Below are positions 37,237-46,580 of a DNA stretch of 64,000 nucleotides, in pieces; the first letter of the stretch is position 1; every line of letters starts with the position of its first letter. The translations under genes and the position numbers were made by a program. The notes under the pieces are model-generated. The model did no database searches and had not been told where the DNA came from. It was given only the letters and a program-made list of their open reading frames with translations. Source of the DNA: Phycisphaeraceae bacterium (GTDB taxonomy: Bacteria; Planctomycetota; Phycisphaerae; Phycisphaerales; UBA1924); contig JAHBWW010000001.1 in NCBI GenBank assembly GCA_019636795.1, positions 620,001-684,000 of the forward strand, written 5' to 3'.

Positions 37237-37662
37237 ATTCTCGGACGATCCGCTCGCATTTGCCCTCGCTCTCCCAGCCCGACACTTGATCCGCGCCGCA
37301 TCACGCCTACCATTTCCTGCAGAGGCTGTCGATGCGTCACGACGCAGAGCACCCCCAAAACTGGTGGCGTCGGGCCGACCAGCCTCTTCGATCACGGCCG
37401 GAGTGTGCACCATGGACGAGGAAGAAGAAATCCGTTTGCAGTAACTTCCCCCGACGCCATCACCAGGCGCTCGGCCAGCACATCACCCCGCACGCCGATA
37501 TTCAGAAGTTTCTCCGCCCGCATGCCGATTTGCTTATGCGGGTTCGTTCTTCCCCACGCACGCCATTGTTCAGAATACCACTCGGAGGATCAGTGCGGCC
37601 CAGTTCGCCCGCGCATTCCGCCGACTCCACCACCCCGATTCACACACAAGGAAGTATCACCT
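37237..37662 (+). other. 426-base leader region of fusA
   Basis: No gene recognised. A weak promoter candidate is TTGATC at 37286-37291 with TACCAT at 37308-37313 (16-base spacing), which would give a ~350-nucleotide untranslated leader. An AAGGAAG ribosome-binding site precedes fusA. Purine-rich and palindromic short segments occur near 37390-37440, but no known riboswitch fold was identified. Confidence 0.35.
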
Positions 37663-39780
37663 ATGTCCTCCGACCTCTCAAACATCCGCAACATCGGCAT
37701 CTGCGCTCACATCGACGCAGGCAAAACAACCGTCACCGAACGCATCCTCTTCTACACCGGCAAAAACTACAAACTCGGTGAAGTTCACGAGGGTACCGCC
37801 ACCATGGACTTCCTCCAGGAAGAACAGGAGCGCGGCATCACCATCCAGTCCGCCGCAACCACCTGCCCATGGACACGCAGCGGCAGAGAATACAAAATCA
37901 ACCTCATCGACACCCCCGGACACGTCGACTTCACCATCGAAGTCGAACGCTCCCTCCGCGTCCTCGACGGCGCCGTCGCCGTCTTCGACGGCAAGGAAGG
38001 CGTCGAAGCCCAGTCCGAAACCGTCTGGCGCCAGGCCGACCGTTACAAAGTCCCCCGCCTCTGCTTCATCAACAAAATGGACAAACTCGGAGCCGACTTC
38101 GAGTTCTCCTTCTTCTCCATCATCAAACGCCTCGGTGCCAACCCCATCGCCGTCCAGTACCCCATCGGACACGGCAACGAACTTCAGGGCATCATCGACC
38201 TCCTCGCCATGAAGGCCTACTTCTTCTCCAAAGAAGACAACGGCGCAACCGTCACCGAAGGCGAAATCCCCGCCGAATACGCCGACAAAGCCGCCGAGTG
38301 GCGACACACCCTCATCGAAAAAGCCGTCGAACTCGACGACAACCTCCTCGAACGTTACCTCGAAGACGAAAACTCCATCACCGTCGACGAACTCCGCGCC
38401 GCTCTCCGCAAGGGAACCATCGCTCGCGAGTGCAACCCCGTCTTCTGTGGTGCCGCTCTCCGAAACATCGGCGTCCAGCGCCTCCTCGATGGCGTCATCG
38501 ACTACCTCCCAAACCCTCAGGAAGTCCCGCCCGTTCAAGGGCTCGACCCCAAGGATCCCGAGAAGAAACTCAGCCGCCCTCACGACGAGTCCGCACCATT
38601 CAGCGCGCTCGTCTTCAAGGTCGTCGCCGATACCCATGGCGATCTCACCTACGCACGCATCTACTCCGGCAAACTCGCAAAAGGCACCCGCGTCCTCAAC
38701 CCCGTCAACGGACGCCGCGAAATCGCCAGCCGAATCTTCGAAATGCACGCCAAGGATCGCTTGGCCCTCGATGAAGTCAGCGCCGGAAACATCGTCGCCC
38801 TCGTCGGCATCAAAGACTCAATCACCGGCGACACCCTCTGCGATTCCGACACCCCGATCGTCCTCGAACGCATGACCTTCCCCGAGCCCGTCATCAGCAT
38901 GTCCATCGAGCCCAAGACCGCCGACGACAAAAAGAAACTCTCCGACGCGCTCGTCACCATCCGCCGCGAAGATCCTTCATTCCGCTCCGAGTTCAACGAC
39001 GAAACCGGACAGACCATCATCTCCGGCATGGGCGAACTCCACCTCGAAATCATCAAGAACAAGATCGTCCGCGACATGAAGGTCAACGTCGAAGTCGGCA
39101 AGCCCCGCGTCTCATACCGCGAAGCCATCTCCGGCACCGCAAACAACGTCCGTGGCCTCTTCAAGAAGCAGTCCGGCGGCCGCGGTCAGTTCGGCGACGT
39201 CACCATCAACCTCATGCCCTACACCGAAGAGCAGGCCAAGGCCGACGGCGTCAACTTCAAGAACAACATCGCCTTCGTCAACAAAGTCGTCGGCGGCTCA
39301 ATCCCCAAGGAATTCATCCCCTCAGTCGAGGCCGGTGTTCGCCAGACCGCCATCGGCGGCGTCACCGCCGGTTACCCCCTCATCAACATCAAGGTCGAAC
39401 TCGTCGATGGCTCATACCACGACGTCGACTCCAGCCAGATCGCCTTCGAACAGGCCGGACGCCTCGCCCTTCGCGATGCCGTCTCCAAGGCCCGCAGCAT
39501 CCTCCTCGAACCCATCATGAAGGTCGTCATCACAACGCCCGAAGACTACCTCGGCAACGTCACCGGCGACCTCTCCAGCCGCCGCGGCATGATCCTCGAC
39601 TCCGAAGACCGCGGACCCGTCAAGATCGTCACCGCCGAAGTCCCCCTCTCCGAAATGTTCGGCTACACCACCACCCTCCGAGGCCTCAGCCAGGGTCGCG
39701 CCTCAAGCGTCATGGAATTCATGAAGTACGCCCCCATGCCCACCAACCTTCAGAAGGAAGTCATCGAAGCCGGCGCCTGA
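37663..39780 (+). CDS. fusA: Translation elongation factor G
   Basis: A 705-residue GTPase that drives ribosomal translocation and, with RRF, recycling. G motifs: AHIDAGKTT (15-23), the RGITIQSAAT switch I, DTPGHVDFTIEVERSLRVLD, and NKMDK. The C-terminal domain IV and V sequence (SGGRGQFGDVTINL; PSVEAGVRQTAIGGV) is intact, giving the full canonical length. It has AAGGAAG 8-9 bases before the ATG at 37663. Unusually it is not next to tuf, rpsL or rpsG. A strong terminator follows. A second, shorter EF-G homologue lies at 44.5 kb on the other strand. Confidence 0.97.
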   Translation: MSSDLSNIRNIGICAHIDAGKTTVTERILFYTGKNYKLGEVHEGTATMDFLQEEQERGITIQSAATTCPWTRSGREYKINLIDTPGHVDFTIEVERSLRVLDGAVAVFDGKEGVEAQSETVWRQADRYKVPRLCFINKMDKLGADFEFSFFSIIKRLGANPIAVQYPIGHGNELQGIIDLLAMKAYFFSKEDNGATVTEGEIPAEYADKAAEWRHTLIEKAVELDDNLLERYLEDENSITVDELRAALRKGTIARECNPVFCGAALRNIGVQRLLDGVIDYLPNPQEVPPVQGLDPKDPEKKLSRPHDESAPFSALVFKVVADTHGDLTYARIYSGKLAKGTRVLNPVNGRREIASRIFEMHAKDRLALDEVSAGNIVALVGIKDSITGDTLCDSDTPIVLERMTFPEPVISMSIEPKTADDKKKLSDALVTIRREDPSFRSEFNDETGQTIISGMGELHLEIIKNKIVRDMKVNVEVGKPRVSYREAISGTANNVRGLFKKQSGGRGQFGDVTINLMPYTEEQAKADGVNFKNNIAFVNKVVGGSIPKEFIPSVEAGVRQTAIGGVTAGYPLINIKVELVDGSYHDVDSSQIAFEQAGRLALRDAVSKARSILLEPIMKVVITTPEDYLGNVTGDLSSRRGMILDSEDRGPVKIVTAEVPLSEMFGYTTTLRGLSQGRASSVMEFMKYAPMPTNLQKEVIEAGA

Positions 39781-39893: not shown

Positions 39894-40289
39894 TCACGTC
39901 AGCATCAGCAGCCCGCGCGCCCCAAGCCCCACCGCCAGACCCCACACCAGATTCACCAGCGTCCCGCCCAGAAAAAACCCAGGATTCTGCTTGATCGCCT
40001 CCGTCCGCACCAGCGACTTGGCCGCAAAAATCAACGCAAGCCCCGCATAGTTCCCCGTCAGCACAAACGTCAGCGTAATGATGTTCTCGCACTTCCCGAT
40101 CACCACGCTCGGATCAAACCTCGGCCACCCACCCGCAGGCATCTCACGCCCATCCATCGGTGGCCACGAACTCTTCACACCCGGCGGCAACACAAAATAG
40201 CGCACCATATATCCGCTCAGCCCAATCGCCAGCGCATACGCCGCTGCAAGGATCAAAGCACGCAACACAAATGTCCAGAAATCAATCAT
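39894..40289 (-). CDS. Small SatE/DUF3307-like membrane protein
   Basis: A 131-residue protein with three or four hydrophobic segments. The segment ENIITLTFVLTGNYAGLALI followed by FAAKSLVRTEAI and FFLGGTLVN resembles the C-terminal part of DUF3307/SatE membrane proteins (two helices around an AAKSIxR motif). It follows SatD with a four-base overlap, the partnership seen in satDE loci. It is much shorter than typical DUF3307 (about 230 residues), so it may represent only the second half of that fold. Function is unknown; acid tolerance and protein secretion roles are only known from streptococci. Confidence 0.6.
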   Translation of the reverse strand: MIDFWTFVLRALILAAAYALAIGLSGYMVRYFVLPPGVKSSWPPMDGREMPAGGWPRFDPSVVIGKCENIITLTFVLTGNYAGLALIFAAKSLVRTEAIKQNPGFFLGGTLVNLVWGLAVGLGARGLLMLT

Positions 40290-40936
40290 CCGCCTTCGCT
40301 CCCAGCGCTTCCCATCTCGCTCAGCCCGCAGTGTACCGCATTCTCGATCCGTTGCATCAAATCAAAACCCGCTCGGCTCAGCGATCGCGAAATCGTCTGC
40401 GCCGAAACTCCCAGCGCCTCCGCCGCCCCCAGTTGCGTCTCATGCACCCGCGCCGCGATCACAAACTCCCGCTGCCGCGCGCTCCATTCGTGCATCAGTC
40501 GCCCATGCGCCGCCGCCGCCGCTTCGGTCAGCATCACCAGCGACTCTGGCGCCTCAGGCACCATCACCGCAAACGGCATCTTCTCCCGCTTCGCCCGCGC
40601 CAGCGCATCCGCCGCACGATGAAACGCCGACCCATCCAGCGCCCCCGCATCGCCCGAGTCCAGCCCGATGTCAATCGCACCGCACCCCAGCGCCCACCGA
40701 AACCGGTGGGGCCACACCCGTTCATTCAGCGCGACCGCAATCTCAAACGCCCGATCAGGCCTGACCAACGCCGCCGAGAGTTCGTCAATCCCCTTCGTGC
40801 TCGTCAGCGCCGCCGTCCATTCCGACGCAAACCCCACACGCAGCTCTTCCAAGGCCTGCCCCAGCCGCTCCGCAAGCGCAGCACGGTTCTTGACCAGGCG
40901 CGAATCAATCAGGTCAGCAATCAGCGCGTAGTGCAT
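40286..40936 (-). CDS. satD: SatD-family regulatory protein with C-terminal HTH
   Basis: A 216-residue protein. The N-terminal part (YALIADLIDSR ... AALAERLGQAL, FTLTSTKGIDELSAAL-like region, and FRWALGCGAIDIGLDSGDAG) fits SatD, which has a nucleotide-cyclase-like fold. The C-terminus is a helix-turn-helix with GAAEALGVSAQTISRSLSRA. It is upstream of and overlaps by four bases the SatE-like gene. A repeated AT-rich operator just upstream is a likely target. Family name given by resemblance; the exact physiological role in this phylum is not known. Confidence 0.75.
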   Translation of the reverse strand: MHYALIADLIDSRLVKNRAALAERLGQALEELRVGFASEWTAALTSTKGIDELSAALVRPDRAFEIAVALNERVWPHRFRWALGCGAIDIGLDSGDAGALDGSAFHRAADALARAKREKMPFAVMVPEAPESLVMLTEAAAAAHGRLMHEWSARQREFVIAARVHETQLGAAEALGVSAQTISRSLSRAGFDLMQRIENAVHCGLSEMGSAGSEGG

Positions 40937-40954
40937 GATTCAAGTATATCGTCC

Positions 40955-41024
40955 AAAATAGGCTGATACACCATAATCAATCAAAAATGGCTAATATCAA
41001 CAAATAAGCCATAAAAGGCTGATT
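40955..41024. promoter_or_regulatory. Three direct repeats with exact 28-base period upstream of satD (candidate operator)
   Basis: The motif AAAATAGGCTGATA at 40955-40968, AAAAATGGCTAATA at 40983-40996 and ATAAAAGGCTGATT at 41011-41024 share the core GGCTRAT. Their GGCT cores start at 40961, 40989 and 41017, exactly 28 bases apart. An inverted copy of the core (ATAAGCCAT) lies at 41004-41012 beside the third copy. The DNA is markedly AT-rich for this genome. It sits directly upstream of satD and downstream of deoC, so it most likely binds the SatD HTH or another dimeric regulator. Confidence 0.6.
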
Positions 41025-41990
41025 TTACGCGTCCGAGAACTCATCATCCGCCGGATACGAACCCCGCCGCAGTTTCACATACGACCGCAGCAGATCATTC
41101 AGCAGCGTCGAAGCCCCGAACCGGAACAACGCCGGACTCAGCCACGGGCAGGCGCGGGGGGCCGTCAGAGGCCCAACCGTCTCACTCACCATGCACAGGT
41201 AGTGCCACGCCTGCTTGGCAGTCCTGATGCCTCCAGCCGGCTTCAGCCCAATCAGCCGCCCCGATCGCAGATACTCATCGCGGATCGCCTCGAGCATCAC
41301 CAGGCACACCGGCATCGTCGCCGCAGGCTGCACCTTGCCCGTACTCGTCTTGATGAAATCCCCATCCCGAATGCACGCAATCGCAATGTCGCTCGCACGC
41401 CGCACGTTGTCGAGCGTCTCCAACTCTCCCGTCTCCAGAATCACCTTCAGATGCACACCGCCCCTATGCCCATTGCGGCCGCTCTCCGCTTCGCACAACG
41501 CCGCCACCTCGCCAATCTCTTCCGCAACCTCGTCGTACCGCCCCGACAGAAACGCCCCGCGATTGATCACCATATCAATCTCATCAGCTCCAGCAACAAT
41601 CGCCTGCTTCGTGTCGCGAAGCCGCACCTCAAGCGGATACTGCCCGCTCGGAAATCCAGTCGCCACGCTCGCCACCTTCACGCTCGTTCCTTCAAGCAAC
41701 TCACGCGCAACCGGCACCAGATTCGGATACACACACACCGCCGCAACACTCGGCACACGCTCACCGAGCTCCGCCTCATCACGCTCAAACGGCCGCACCG
41801 CCTTGCGACACAGCGAACGCACCTTCTCGGGCGAGTCCTTCCCCTCCAGCGTTGTCAGATCCGTCATCGAGATCGCCAGCCGCAGCGCCATCGCCTTCGA
41901 CTCGGCCTTGATCGATCGCGTCGCAAACGACGCCGCACGCTGCGACGCAGCAACAGGATCAACCGTCGGGCTGGGAGGAACACTCGGCAT
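41025..41990 (-). CDS. deoC: Deoxyribose-phosphate aldolase
   Basis: A 321-residue class I aldolase that reversibly splits 2-deoxyribose-5-phosphate into glyceraldehyde-3-phosphate and acetaldehyde in deoxynucleoside catabolism. The Schiff-base lysine is K214 in DFIKTSTGK; ADEIDMVINRGAFLSG, LKVILETGEL and LIGLKPAGGIRTAKQAWHYL complete the family signature. It is longer than E. coli DeoC (259), matching the large bacterial/eukaryotic DERA subgroup. ATG 41990 lies inside the end of the upstream hydrolase gene (32-base overlap), so co-translation is likely. It ends next to the satD operator. Confidence 0.93.
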   Translation of the reverse strand: MPSVPPSPTVDPVAASQRAASFATRSIKAESKAMALRLAISMTDLTTLEGKDSPEKVRSLCRKAVRPFERDEAELGERVPSVAAVCVYPNLVPVARELLEGTSVKVASVATGFPSGQYPLEVRLRDTKQAIVAGADEIDMVINRGAFLSGRYDEVAEEIGEVAALCEAESGRNGHRGGVHLKVILETGELETLDNVRRASDIAIACIRDGDFIKTSTGKVQPAATMPVCLVMLEAIRDEYLRSGRLIGLKPAGGIRTAKQAWHYLCMVSETVGPLTAPRACPWLSPALFRFGASTLLNDLLRSYVKLRRGSYPADDEFSDA

Positions 41991-42888
41991 CGGTCGAATC
42001 GTATGACCGCAGAGGCCCAAACCGCGCCACCGCCGCAACGCACCGCTCCACCGACTCCGCCCTCACCCACAGGCCATTGTGCGTCCCCTGCGCAATCGAC
42101 ACAAAACAACCCAACCGCGCCGCCTCCGCAATCGCCCGCCCATCAGCCTCCGGACAGATCCGATCATCCTCTCCATGCAGCACAAGCAACGGACACTCAA
42201 CCCGCGCCGCAATCAACGCCCGATCAAACCGCTCCACAACCTTCGGCGAAAACCCAAGCCCGAGCATCGCCGCACGCAGCGCCAACCCCGACGGCAGATC
42301 CGACGCCCGCATCACATTGCGGGCCGGAGTCATCGGCAGCCGATACGGAGCCTCAGCAATCACCCCAACCACCGAACGCCGCTCAACCGCCGCAGCAATC
42401 GATACCCCCGCCCCCAACGACCACCCATACAGCACCACACCCTCCGCACCCACGCGATCAATCAACGCAACCAGATCCGCCACCTCGCGCCGGCCCAGGC
42501 GCGACCGCCCCGGTGCCTCCCCATGCCCAGGCATATCCCACGCAATCAGCCGCGACGCAAACCGGCTCATGTGGCCGATCCGCGCCAGCGCCCCTATCCG
42601 CGAGTCACCCCACCCATGCGTCAGAATCACCACAGGCCCGCGTGCCTCAAGCCCCGCGATATCCCACACCGGCAGCTCTAGCCCCCCCGACCCAAGCCGC
42701 CACTCGCTCCACCCCAGTGGCGGCGAAAGTTCACCCGGCTCCCCCGCAATGTTGCGCACCACCGCCGACACATACGTCCGCCTCGGAGGATGCGATAACT
42801 TCCACCCAATGACCCACACCAGAAGCAGAAAATAGCCCAACCCCCCGACAGCGAGCAGCACAAACAATCCTGGAAGGTGGTGAAGCAT
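41959..42888 (-). CDS. Membrane-anchored alpha/beta hydrolase
   Basis: A 309-residue protein with an N-terminal TM (LFVLLAVGGLGYFLLLVWVI), then an alpha/beta-hydrolase domain. The nucleophile Ser is in YGWSLGAG, the oxyanion/early motif is VVILTHGWGDS, and the acid/His are in LVLHGEDDRICP and IAQGTHNGLW. It resembles BAAT/YfhR-type serine esterases. Substrate unknown. Its 3' end overlaps the start of deoC by 32 bases. Confidence 0.82.
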   Translation of the reverse strand: MLHHLPGLFVLLAVGGLGYFLLLVWVIGWKLSHPPRRTYVSAVVRNIAGEPGELSPPLGWSEWRLGSGGLELPVWDIAGLEARGPVVILTHGWGDSRIGALARIGHMSRFASRLIAWDMPGHGEAPGRSRLGRREVADLVALIDRVGAEGVVLYGWSLGAGVSIAAAVERRSVVGVIAEAPYRLPMTPARNVMRASDLPSGLALRAAMLGLGFSPKVVERFDRALIAARVECPLLVLHGEDDRICPEADGRAIAEAARLGCFVSIAQGTHNGLWVRAESVERCVAAVARFGPLRSYDSTDAECSSQPDG

Positions 42889-43026: not shown

Positions 43027-43656
43027 ATGTCCGACCGCTACCAGACCGTCCTGCTCTTTGGAGCCCCCGGCGCAGGCAAGGGCACACAGGGCAAGATCCT
43101 CGGCCAGATCCCCGGCTTCTTCCACCTCTCCTGTGGCGAAATCTTCCGCAACATGGATATCACCAGCGAACTCGGACGCATCTTCCGCGAATTCTCCTCA
43201 CGCGGCGAACTCGTCCCCGACGATGTCACCGTCCGCATGTGGGCCCAGAACATCAAAGCCCAGACCATCCTCAGCCTCTACAAACCACACATCGACCTCC
43301 TGATCCTCGACGGCATCCCACGCAGCGTCCGCCAGGCCGAACTCATGAAGCAGCACATCAACGTGCTCCAGATCATCCATCTTGTCTGCCGCGACAAGGA
43401 AAAAATGGTCGAACGCCTTCAGCGTCGCGCACTCAAGGAAAACCGTCACGACGACGCAAAAGAAGACGTCATCCGACGCCGCTGGGAGGTCTACGAACGC
43501 GAGACGCGCCCCGTCCTCGATTGCTACCCCGCCAGCATCATCCGCGAAGTCGATGCGATGGGTTCCCCCGCAGCCGTCCTCCAGCACGTCCTCGGCGAAG
43601 TCGTCCCCGTCCAGGAAACACACTTCTCCAACCCCGTCGATGGCTCGCCCACCTGA
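43027..43656 (+). CDS. adk: Adenylate kinase (divergent)
   Basis: A 209-residue P-loop kinase: [15 protein letters not shown] (P-loop at 12-20), [11 protein letters not shown], and [16 protein letters not shown], the NMP-binding and LID-base signature of adenylate kinase. The PR in LDGIPRS replaces the usual GFPR. It interconverts ATP + AMP and 2 ADP. The LID region is short, giving a size like the short-form enzymes. GGAGG lies about 10 bases before the ATG at 43027. It is divergent from the hydrolase gene and 25 bases upstream of the prepilin gene. A UMP/CMP kinase function is less likely. Confidence 0.85.
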
Positions 43657-43681
43657 ACGCACGCGCTCCTACCCTTCGCTC

Positions 43682-44494
43682 ATGCGCCGCGCCTTCACGC
43701 TCATCGAGCTCCTTGTCGTCATCGCCATCATCGCTCTGCTTATCGCGATTCTCCTCCCCGCACTCTCAAAAGCCCGCGTGGCCGCCCTCTCCGTCACCTG
43801 CGGCTCGCGCCTCCAGCAAATCGGCATCGGCCTCGGGCTCTACCTCTCCGACTTCCCCGATCGACTCCCCCAAATCCGAGGCCCCATTCCCGGCGGCGGC
43901 GAAGGAATCATCGGAGCACTCTTCGCAGGCACCAAAGGACAACTCCCCTTCTATGGCATCAACGAAATCGGCGCCTCCCGACGCCCGCTCAACTCATACG
44001 TCATCGACTTCTCGGTCCCCGACGACTCTGCCGACAACACCGTCGAGCTCGCAGCATTCGAATCGCCCGCAGACCGCGGCGCAGGCGACACCGGCGTCCC
44101 CATTCCCGGCCTCAACTCCACCGAATCCATGTACCGCCTCATCGGCTGCTCATACACACTCAACGACCACGCCCCCGACGCCAACCCATTCGGCGAAGAC
44201 ATTCGCACACTCGTCCCGCCACAGGGCGGACGCATGCCCAACGTCTTCGACCACACACGCACCGTCGTCATCGGCTCCCACCCCATCTACAACTTCGACT
44301 CCGGTGCCGATCGACAGATGAACTGGTACGGCAGGCGCGACGGGCAGGACGCAATCGCCAACATGCTCTTCCTCGATCTCCACGTCAACGTCGGCGTGCG
44401 CATGCCAAACCCCGGCGGCAAAACACCGCCGCACTCCACCGACAACTACTCTTTCCTTCCAAGCCCCGACTGGGTCGCACGCTATCCGTGGTAA
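43682..44494 (+). CDS. Prepilin-type N-terminal cleavage/methylation protein (planctomycete pseudopilin)
   Basis: A 270-residue pseudopilin with the type IV pilin signal [17 protein letters not shown], where prepilin peptidase cuts before the Phe and methylates it. The conserved E5 is the Glu in TLIELL, and the helix runs through [14 protein letters not shown]. The globular part includes [14 protein letters not shown] and ends [15 protein letters not shown], typical of the large planctomycete DUF1559-like family. ATG 43682 follows adk. Possible roles: type II secretion-like machinery or an extracellular fibre. Confidence 0.9.
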
Positions 44495-44510: not shown

Positions 44511-46580
44511 TCAGTCCTCGTCCTTGTGCCCCGCGAACGCAGCAATCACTTCCTGCTGAATGTGCGCCGGCGTGTTCTCGTCGTGCGAGTAGTCCATCGT
44601 GTACGAACCCGAGCCGCCTGTGATGCTCTTGAGTTCATTCGAATAGTTCTGCAACTCACCCAGCGGCGCCTGTGCCACCACGCAGCACATGCCCCCCGCC
44701 AGCACCCGCGTATCCTGCACACGCCCACGCTTCGTCGACAGGTCGCCCGCGATATCGCCCATGTATTGGCTCGGACACGTCACCTCCAGCGTCACGATCG
44801 GTTCAAGCAGCACCGGCTTGGCCTTGTGCACCGCATCGATGAACGCCTTGCGACCCGCAGTAATGAACGCGATTTCCTTCGAGTCCACCGCGTGATACTT
44901 CCCGTCATACACCTCCACACGCACACCCGTGAACGGATACCCCGCCACCGCACCGTCTGAAAGCGTCGAACGAATCCCCTTCTCAATCGCAGGCATGTAC
45001 TGCTTCGGGATCGAGCCGCCCACCGTCGCATTCACAAACTCAAACCCCGACTCATGATCGTGCGGCAGCGGCTCCACACGCAAATACACCTCCCCAAACT
45101 GCCCCGCTCCGCCAGTCTGCTTCTTATGCCGATGATGCCCGTCGGCCTTGGCAGTGATCGTCTCCTTGTACGCAATCTTCGGCGGGCTTGTCACCAGTTC
45201 AATCCCGAAGTGCTCCTTCATCCGCTCAATCACAATGCGCAGATGCAACTCGCCCAGCCCACGCAGCACCGTCTGCTTCGTCGCCGCGATCCGTTCCATC
45301 CTCAGGCTCGGATCCTCCGCAAGCAACTTCGCCATCGCTCCCGAAAACTTCGATTCATCCGCGTGATTCTTCAGTTCGATCGCAAGCCCGAACATCGGCT
45401 TGGGCAGCGGCAGCGGCCGAAGATGCAGACTGTCAAGCTCATGCCCCGTGTGCAGCACCGCATCGTAAAACACCTCTTCAATCTTGCTCACAGCCCCGAT
45501 ATCCCCAGGACCAATCGCCTCCACTTCATGCGATTCCTTCCCCTGCCGCTTGAGCAGATGCCCGATCCGCACCGCCTTCTTGTTATGCCCGATCAGCACC
45601 TCAGTCTTGGCCCGGATCGAACCCTGATGCACCCGAAACACACCCAACTTGCCCACAAACGGGTCCGTCGTGATCTTGAAAATGTTGGCAATCAGCGGCC
45701 TGTCGATCATCGGCTCGGCATGGAACTCGTACTCCTCGCCCTCATCCGAATCACGCTTCATGAAAGGCCTCGGATTTCCCTCCAGCGGATTCGGCAGCAG
45801 CGATGCAAAAATGTGCAACAGCGAATCAACACCAGCCCCCGTCTTGGCCGACACAAAACAGATCGGAATCAGGTGCGCCTCGCGCAGTGCCGCCTCGAAC
45901 GCGTCATGCAACTTCGACTTGTCGAGGTTCGCGTCGTCCCCCTCCTCCAGATACTGATTCAGCAACTCGTCCTGCATCTCCACAATCTGCTCGACAATCT
46001 GCTGGTGCGCATCCTCCGCACTCGAAAACAGCGTCGGACCTTTCACCACAGGATCAAACACGCCCACCACATCCGTCCGATCCGGCGTCGGCAGATTGAT
46101 CGGCAGGCACACCGCGCCGAACTCCTCACGCAGCGCCTCCACCAGCGACTCGATATCCGCGTTTCCATCGTCGATCTTGTTGATGATGATCATCCGCGGC
46201 AGATTCCGCTCCGCCGCAACGCTCATCATCCGCCGGGTCACCGTGTCAATCCCGCGCGCCGCATCAATCACCACGCACACCGTCTCCACCGCAGGAAACA
46301 CACTGATCGCATGCGCCAGAAAATCAGGCATCCCCGGCGCATCAATCATGTTCACCATGTGCCCTTCATGATCAAAATGCAGCATCGAAGGCCGCAACGA
46401 ATGCTTGTGGTGCTTCTCCTCTTCCGTAAAGTCACTGACCGTGTTCCCATCCTCCACAGTCCCCATCCGCTGAATCACGCCCTTCGTGAACAGCAGCCGC
46501 TCGGCCAGTGTCGTCTTGCCGCTGCTCGCCTGACCCACAAGGCACAGATTGCGGATGTCTTCGGGTTTGTGTACAGCCAT
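44511..46580 (-). CDS. fusA2: EF-G-like GTPase (FusA2 type)
   Basis: A 689-residue EF-G homologue with all five domains (LLHIFASLLPNP; GGAGQFGEVYLRVEPL; IEKGIRSTLSDGAVAGYPFT). The P-loop VGQASSGKTT (15-24) has GQASSGKTT in place of the AHxDAGKTT of EF-G, DAPGMPDFL replaces DTPGHVDF, and NKIDD is intact. These changes, and the loss of the switch II His (H replaced by M), mark the FusA2-type paralogues found in several phyla, whose physiological role is not well established. The canonical EF-G is present at 37.7 kb. It faces the prepilin gene convergently with 16 bases between stops. Confidence 0.88.
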   Translation of the reverse strand: MAVHKPEDIRNLCLVGQASSGKTTLAERLLFTKGVIQRMGTVEDGNTVSDFTEEEKHHKHSLRPSMLHFDHEGHMVNMIDAPGMPDFLAHAISVFPAVETVCVVIDAARGIDTVTRRMMSVAAERNLPRMIIINKIDDGNADIESLVEALREEFGAVCLPINLPTPDRTDVVGVFDPVVKGPTLFSSAEDAHQQIVEQIVEMQDELLNQYLEEGDDANLDKSKLHDAFEAALREAHLIPICFVSAKTGAGVDSLLHIFASLLPNPLEGNPRPFMKRDSDEGEEYEFHAEPMIDRPLIANIFKITTDPFVGKLGVFRVHQGSIRAKTEVLIGHNKKAVRIGHLLKRQGKESHEVEAIGPGDIGAVSKIEEVFYDAVLHTGHELDSLHLRPLPLPKPMFGLAIELKNHADESKFSGAMAKLLAEDPSLRMERIAATKQTVLRGLGELHLRIVIERMKEHFGIELVTSPPKIAYKETITAKADGHHRHKKQTGGAGQFGEVYLRVEPLPHDHESGFEFVNATVGGSIPKQYMPAIEKGIRSTLSDGAVAGYPFTGVRVEVYDGKYHAVDSKEIAFITAGRKAFIDAVHKAKPVLLEPIVTLEVTCPSQYMGDIAGDLSTKRGRVQDTRVLAGGMCCVVAQAPLGELQNYSNELKSITGGSGSYTMDYSHDENTPAHIQQEVIAAFAGHKDED

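Follow-up and report, generated by a model that had tools for sequence, protein, structure and literature searches.

We know of no biochemical function for SatD or for the DUF3307-type proteins, two families that occur in both bacteria and archaea. The family name is shared with the SatD (secretion and acid tolerance) of Streptococcus (PMC11323703, PMC10326533, PMC12005413), and no operator is described in the accessible portions of these three papers. Within the same portions, PMC11323703 reports that satD, although accessory in S. pyogenes, comes out as essential in transposon studies, and PMC12005413 lists the S. suis product as a 'DNA-binding protein'. We likewise found no description of a SatD operator or of a SatD cyclase fold in the available text of the openly licensed PMC literature (including PMC10326533, PMC11323703, PMC12005413, PMC10210942 and PMC5786311), and earlier work in subscription journals is possible. 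A second point of comparison is DeoR of Bacillus subtilis, a member of the SorC family, with its operator at dra-nupC-pdp. According to the accessible portion of PMC11229326, the left half-operator of DeoR, ATTGAA-CAAAAT-TTCAAT, consists of 6-bp arms around a 6-nt spacer, part of the operator lies over the promoter, and the DeoR tetramer is a dimer of dimers.

In the window (the whole 64,000-nucleotide stretch of DNA that was analysed), a deoC-like gene precedes satD on the minus strand, and the AT-rich gap of 88 bases between the two genes holds a repeat array (Table 1). The initial annotation had placed three cores at 40961, 40989 and 41017, along with one inverted core, just upstream of a gene encoding a helix-turn-helix (HTH) protein; a motif search of the window returned all four at exactly these positions, between the deoC-like stop codon, which ends at 41025, and the satD start at 40936. 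A repeat search gave three direct GGCTRAT copies with start-to-start spacings of 28 and 28, plus one inverted pair, so that the exact 28-base period claimed at the outset holds, as does the contrast of AT-rich DNA with a high-GC background: GC content is 38-39% in 100-bp windows across the array against about 55-72% nearby. A left arm lies 13 bases leftward of each core. The unit of the array is thus a 20-bp palindrome, ATNAGCC-6-GGCTNAT, and three such dyads follow one another at a pitch of exactly 28 bp over 40948-41023, the inverted core being the left arm of the dyad 3, which lies one base from the deoC-like stop codon. The exact dyad occurs a single time in the 3.49-Mb source genome, as dyad 3 at satD. 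A possible fourth, weaker dyad in the same register is nearly identical in the related loci L003-L006 (sampled satD loci carry L numbers), a conservation for which coding constraint on the protein may also account. By eye, long ORFs resembling elongation factor G flank the satD region on either side (37405-39780 and 44511-46580), and a type IV prepilin-like stretch appears in the translation of 43382-44494, behind an adenylate-kinase-like ORF.

Table 1. Features of the satD region, in window coordinates
Feature	Position	Strand	Description
Partner gene	39894-40289	-	131-aa membrane-type protein; 4-nt overlap with satD stop; motif GKCENIITLTFVLTGNYAGLALIFAAKSLVR
satD	40286-40936	-	216 aa; PF16264 45.5 bits, curated cut-off 29
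Possible weaker dyad 4	40920-40939		Covers satD start codon; same 28-bp register; minus strand ATCATGC-actacg-CGCTGAT
-10-like hexamer TATACT	40943-40948	-	5/6 consensus match; ends 6 nt before satD ATG
Dyad 1, promoter-proximal	40948-40967		ATCGTCC-aaaata-GGCTGAT; two mismatches to ATNAGCC-6-GGCTNAT; -31 to -12 relative to satD ATG
Core GGCTGAT	40961-40967	+	Right arm of dyad 1
Dyad 2	40976-40995		ATCAATC-aaaaat-GGCTAAT; two mismatches to consensus; 28 bp from dyad 1
Core GGCTAAT	40989-40995	+	Right arm of dyad 2
Dyad 3	41004-41023		ATAAGCC-ataaaa-GGCTGAT; exact consensus match; 28 bp from dyad 2
Inverted core GGCTTAT	41004-41010	-	Left arm of dyad 3
Core GGCTGAT	41017-41023	+	Right arm of dyad 3
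deoC/LacD-like aldolase ORF	41025-42038	-	PF01791 44.7 bits; start codon uncertain

The core by itself is unremarkable in number, GGCTNAT occurring 25 times in 64 kb against 26.2 expected, and four of these 25 copies are clustered inside 63 bp. When the window was scored for three dyads with 7-bp arms, a 6-nt spacer and a pitch of 28 (maximum 42), the satD triple took top place with 36; the maximum was at most 31 in 20 shuffles of the whole window and 30 in 2000 local 100-bp shuffles. If up to two mismatches are allowed, as dyads 1 and 2 need, the genome holds 136 places per strand against 64 in a reversed control. A single exact dyad is present in 32 of the 163 genomes of the family, 28 of which have no satD match, and many of these single dyads have, by eye, GC-rich spacers. 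For both reasons the single exact dyad was rejected as a genome-wide marker of satD.

Across the genomes sampled, satD is patchily distributed. Of 163 genomes from the family, 6 carry it, and the corresponding counts in samples of the order, class and phylum are 6 of 301, 3 of 298 and 16 of 294; it was also found in 27 of 216 genomes from the phylum of a Methanoperedens genome, 25 of 145 from the class of a haloarchaeon, and 3 of 198 and 3 of 175 from two other bacterial groups, these samples overlapping in part. A profile search of genome contigs gave 13 loci (L038-L050) that repeat satD genes; they were used for protein alignment and structure, and their upstream sequences were counted only via other copies. 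At one of them, L039 (RHKP01000015.1), a deoC-like gene precedes satD. Fifty-five satD loci were read, leaving out L101 (whose match begins at profile position 47) and L078 and L083, which have in-frame stops; L082 and L084 (72-73 aa) were excluded from the non-redundant set. In L078 and L083 (genome G589) the satD-like stretch contains several such stops and is possibly a decayed copy.

The dyad geometry was first noticed in L001, L002 and L007. Among the nearest relatives of the window, L003 and L004 have one perfect dyad each, L006 has one that is near-perfect, and L005 has none upstream of satD; judged from these sequences, therefore, what is conserved is the geometry and position of the dyads rather than the exact triple or its letters. 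Counting half-sites free of any geometry proved too weak a test (p<=0.05 at 6 of 41 loci) and was replaced by a dyad-pair test, while a first grid of spacers and pitches that did not demand consistent half-sites was blurred, with Z 7.73 for spacer 8 and pitch 29 and Z 7.49 for spacer 6 and pitch 29. The open grid subsequently adopted, covering spacers of 3-12 and pitches of 20-44 at 41 non-redundant satD upstream regions, peaks at spacer 6 and pitch 29 (Z 15.1); pitch 28 reaches Z 9.65, and the grid mean is 1.98 (sd 2.49). For spacers of 5-7 and pitches of 27-30, 20 of the 41 loci reached p<=0.05. Among the 29 loci collected later, 12 did so (10 at p<=0.01), a result that is not blind because the sequences had been inspected before the range was chosen. 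The best pair in the window has spacer 6, pitch 28 and a pair score of 25 (p 0.015); near relatives gave p 0.52 (L003), 0.49 (L005) and 0.83 (L006).

Spacer 6 and pitch 28-29 were then fixed before 13 further non-redundant loci were inspected. Twelve of the 13 reached p<=0.05 and 11 reached p<=0.01, the passing loci being mutually related since they come mainly from one haloarchaeal class: eleven of the 13 belong to that class and two to the class of a Pseudomonadales genome, of which L123 passed and L122 failed. Absence of the repeats upstream of orthologous satD genes, which the initial annotation had named as the observation that would speak against it, is not what the full non-redundant set reveals. 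An array is present at p<=0.05 in 31 of 54 loci (27 of 54 at p<=0.01), against 0 of 53 control stretches taken 560-700 bp upstream and 1 of 51 taken 700-840 bp downstream at the same loci; in the remaining 23 of 54 no significant dyad pair was found. Three Methanothrix loci (L046-L048), of which only the genome of L048 was carried on, as L053, have no dyad. The window itself has at least two consistent dyads with a 6-nt spacer and a pitch of 28-29 upstream of satD. Its pair score nonetheless falls below the threshold of 27 that defines 37 loci with a strong automatic array, because dyads 1 and 2 are imperfect.

The product of satD belongs to the SatD family by its Pfam score (Table 1). A structure predicted from 14 sequences (mean pLDDT 93.5, pTM 0.89) suggests a class-III-cyclase-like N-terminal domain, approximately residues 1-142, followed by a C-terminal HTH whose recognition helix would span about residues 178-189. 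Residues 1-142 of the model superpose on 2qv6_C (Z 9.7, rmsd 2.6, 114 aligned), 3et6_B (Z 9.4, rmsd 2.6, 124 aligned) and Ma1120 5d0g_B (Z 8.9, rmsd 2.7, 121 aligned), matches that we treat as tied, lying within 1 Z of each other, and that share 12-19% identity. Foldseek returned mycobacterial cyclases at E about 1e-3 and probability 1.00 (1ybu_A, E 1.4e-3); its match to 3onq (E 3.6e-4) was set aside for poor superposition (rmsd 16.9). The palm-domain fold of class III cyclases is thus recognizable in the predicted model, and a shared fold does not show function. Two aspartates, D8 and D51, are invariant across all 78 aligned SatDs, a set that contains redundant copies. In the model, strand 1 ends with D8, and D51 lies at the turn between strands 2 and 3, positions that we take to be those of the metal aspartates in class III cyclases. 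For the HTH, the best PDB sequence match is the DNA-binding domain of DeoR (7bhy, E 0.0017), nearly equalled by a mariner transposase (E 0.0033) and a sigma factor (E 0.004). No Pfam match to a SorC/DeoR sugar-phosphate-type effector domain was found in the SatD of the window up to E 1, and its arrangement, with the HTH at the C-terminus and a predicted N-terminal domain resembling a cyclase, differs from that of SorC/DeoR regulators, in which the effector domain follows an N-terminal DNA-binding domain. For SatD and its partner, neither NCBIfam nor PADLOC yielded a usable match, and the weak OXA, sigma and Csx19 hits were taken as chance.

The gene that overlaps the end of satD is annotated as DUF3307, with the same four-base overlap as in the window, in two plasmid records. 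Its counterpart in the window has no Pfam match at cut-off, PF11750 included, and no NCBIfam match, and its motif (Table 1) resembles the C-terminal motif of DUF3307-type partners; it seems that a short form of the partner family lacks a model. Downstream sequence of 400 bp or more is available for 77 loci, some of them redundant copies, and in 63 of these a conserved partner segment (GK-x-EN or LER ... AAKSIxR) follows satD. L115 is the only one of the 14 loci without the motif that is also among the 37 strong-array loci. The 80-locus set behind the counts of 77 and 78 includes redundant copies (L125 and L103 occupy one and the same position in a record, and L124 apparently duplicates L109). 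A subgroup of archaeal SatDs (L066, L068-L072) has a different helix, GERSIYKTL or GERSVYKTL; no partner motif was found in the five members tested (L066, L068, L070-L072) and no significant array in the three non-redundant ones (L068, L069, L071). This subgroup may be a functionally distinct branch.

We infer, with a probability of roughly 0.78, that the array is a set of three, perhaps four, tandem SatD-binding palindromes on which SatD dimers repress satD and its membrane partner under the influence of a nucleotide, a form of negative autoregulation. Each dyad of 18-20 bp, with its two half-sites and 6-nt spacer, would be read by one SatD dimer through its two C-terminal HTH domains, and neighbouring dimers, 28 bp apart, would probably assist one another. 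Dyad 1 shares one base with the TATACT hexamer, its end falling on the hexamer's first base; since the dyad stands directly upstream of this -10-like box and touches it, SatD bound there would block RNA polymerase, and both satD and the overlapping DUF3307-like membrane gene would be held down. The N-terminal cyclase-like domain, with its two invariant aspartates, would probably bind a nucleotide with metal and thereby tune DNA binding.

All promoter elements considered here, in the window and in its relatives, are consensus matches. Given that TATACT ends six bases before the ATG and that no Shine-Dalgarno-like motif was found before satD, a leaderless satD transcript is probable. For the window promoter no good -35 element emerged, the best candidate matching at 3/6 with a spacing of 15. 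In L003 and L004 the perfect dyad, also at -31, sits between TTGACG or TGGACA and TATACT, 18 bp apart, and the near-perfect dyad of L006 is likewise at -31. The window shares with L003, L004, L006 and L056 a proximal dyad that touches or overlaps the -10-like hexamer. In the haloarchaeal loci L108 and L109 the proximal dyad surrounds the sequence ATATAT, which lies between -30 and -25 relative to the ATG, the distance of a TATA box for a leaderless gene, so that SatD on this dyad could exclude TBP. A site that touches or overlaps the -10 or TATA region is in a position typical of repressors, and these loci argue against the alternative in which SatD, bound to the array, serves as an activator of satD or forms an architectural or wrapping complex instead of repressing the gene. 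That alternative draws on the distal dyads, placed upstream of the promoter in a region from which activators can work, on the strict pitch of 28-29 bp, and on L002 and several other loci in which the array is upstream of the -10-like site or far from the chosen ATG. The proximal dyad of L002 ends 8 bp before the -10-like hexamer, and the distance of arrays to the rule-chosen ATG ranges from about -126 (L102) to -10 (L051). Because of L002 and of arrays that reach as far as L102, overlap of dyad and promoter is not, so far as consensus matches can indicate, a general feature of satD arrays. On balance we regard activation or an architectural role as unlikely.

Repression by SatD itself has also to be weighed against binding of the dyads by another regulator, for instance a regulator of nucleoside metabolism at work between deoC and satD. 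The gene order lends this idea some appeal: in L003-L006, as in the window, satD comes immediately after a deoC-like gene. So does the HTH, which resembles the DeoR domain among several others, the DeoR left half-operator being a 6-6-6 dyad too in the accessible part of PMC11229326. Arrays are nonetheless present at L002, L007 and the plasmid loci L124-L126, where no deoC-like gene was seen upstream, and the letters of the half-sites follow the recognition helix of SatD. The helix QQAVSK is paired with ACAACC in a planctomycete (L002), Methanoperedens (L054) and a haloarchaeon (L108), QQAVSD with ACAAGC (L115), QQAVSE with ACAAGT (L007), AQTIS or PQTIS with TCAGCC (window, L056), and KSTVSES or PSVVTET with TTCGGC (L057, L051).

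Over 21 loci, with six half-sites assigned by hand and L087 removed, distances between helices and between half-sites are correlated (Mantel r 0.50, p 0.0002). Distances between N-domains are also correlated with those between half-sites (r 0.30, p 0.004), and the partial correlation for the helix, given N-domain distance, is 0.43 (p 0.0004). When 205 segments, each 11 residues long, were scanned over 17 loci with automatic half-sites, three odd-register loci being left out, the top segments start at residues 174-176 (r 0.55-0.56) and the helix at 178-188 gives r 0.48 (p 0.0002). With the three odd-register loci included uncorrected (19 loci), the partial r for the helix falls to 0.25 (p 0.05), and the segments starting at 174 and at 68 tie at r 0.34. 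In these alignments, then, half-site letters change together with the SatD recognition helix to an extent that goes beyond the relatedness of the N-domains, and we consider a different regulator to be quite improbable. The original proposal of a satD operator stands in so far as the sites are operator-like, arrays occur at many satD genes and their letters track the recognition helix; it does not extend to the exact triple, in place of which the closest relatives have one dyad or none.

The initial annotation had called the array iteron-like, and AT-rich, regularly spaced repeats could indeed belong to a replicon or an integrated plasmid. This label has to be given up: the units are palindromes, their direct cores being right arms, a scan of four neighbouring proteins (SatD, the DeoC-like protein, a hydrolase and the membrane-type protein without a match) recognised no replication initiator, the window lies inside a contig of 760,786 bases, and arrays accompany satD in other phyla, all of which makes an origin as iterons highly implausible. 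Equally hard to credit are chance repeats in an AT-rich gap, for which the lack of GGCTNAT enrichment across the window might be cited, since none of the 2000 local and 20 whole-window shuffles reaches the triple score and the geometry recurs at new loci.

Beyond autorepression by SatD, a wider and more tentative proposal, against which we would still set the odds, is that SatD is a one-component second-messenger regulator, in which a cyclase-fold domain binds or even makes a nucleotide signal and the HTH forms phase-locked oligomers on arrays that control a DUF3307-type membrane effector; this layout would have been kept across bacteria and archaea, with helix and operator letters co-evolving under a simple code. 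If true, the combination of a DNA-binding protein carrying a cyclase-like sensor with strictly pitched arrays would make for an unusual one-component regulator. The defined operator, the layout common to bacteria and archaea and the readable pattern of helix and half-site offer direct tests of the pairing of SatD with its dyads, of the ligand that releases it and of the role of the partner.

Compared with known systems, the array shares with plasmid iterons its regularly spaced, AT-rich repeats and differs from them in being built of dyads, with no initiator recognised nearby. The predicted palm-type fold of SatD residues 1-142 is that of class III cyclases, GGDEF domains and GTP cyclohydrolase III; the cyclase-like domain of SatD differs in being fused to an HTH, at 12-19% identity and with no known activity. 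The likeness to DeoR lies in the HTH and in the operator, for when compared by eye with the published DeoR OL18 (accessible portion of PMC11229326) the satD dyads show the same 18-bp dyad of 6-bp arms and a 6-nt spacer. DeoR, as described in the same portion of that paper, has a sugar-phosphate effector-binding domain and a 39-bp operator with two halves, whereas SatD has a predicted cyclase-like N-terminal domain, a C-terminal HTH and dyads placed mostly at a pitch of 28-29 bp.
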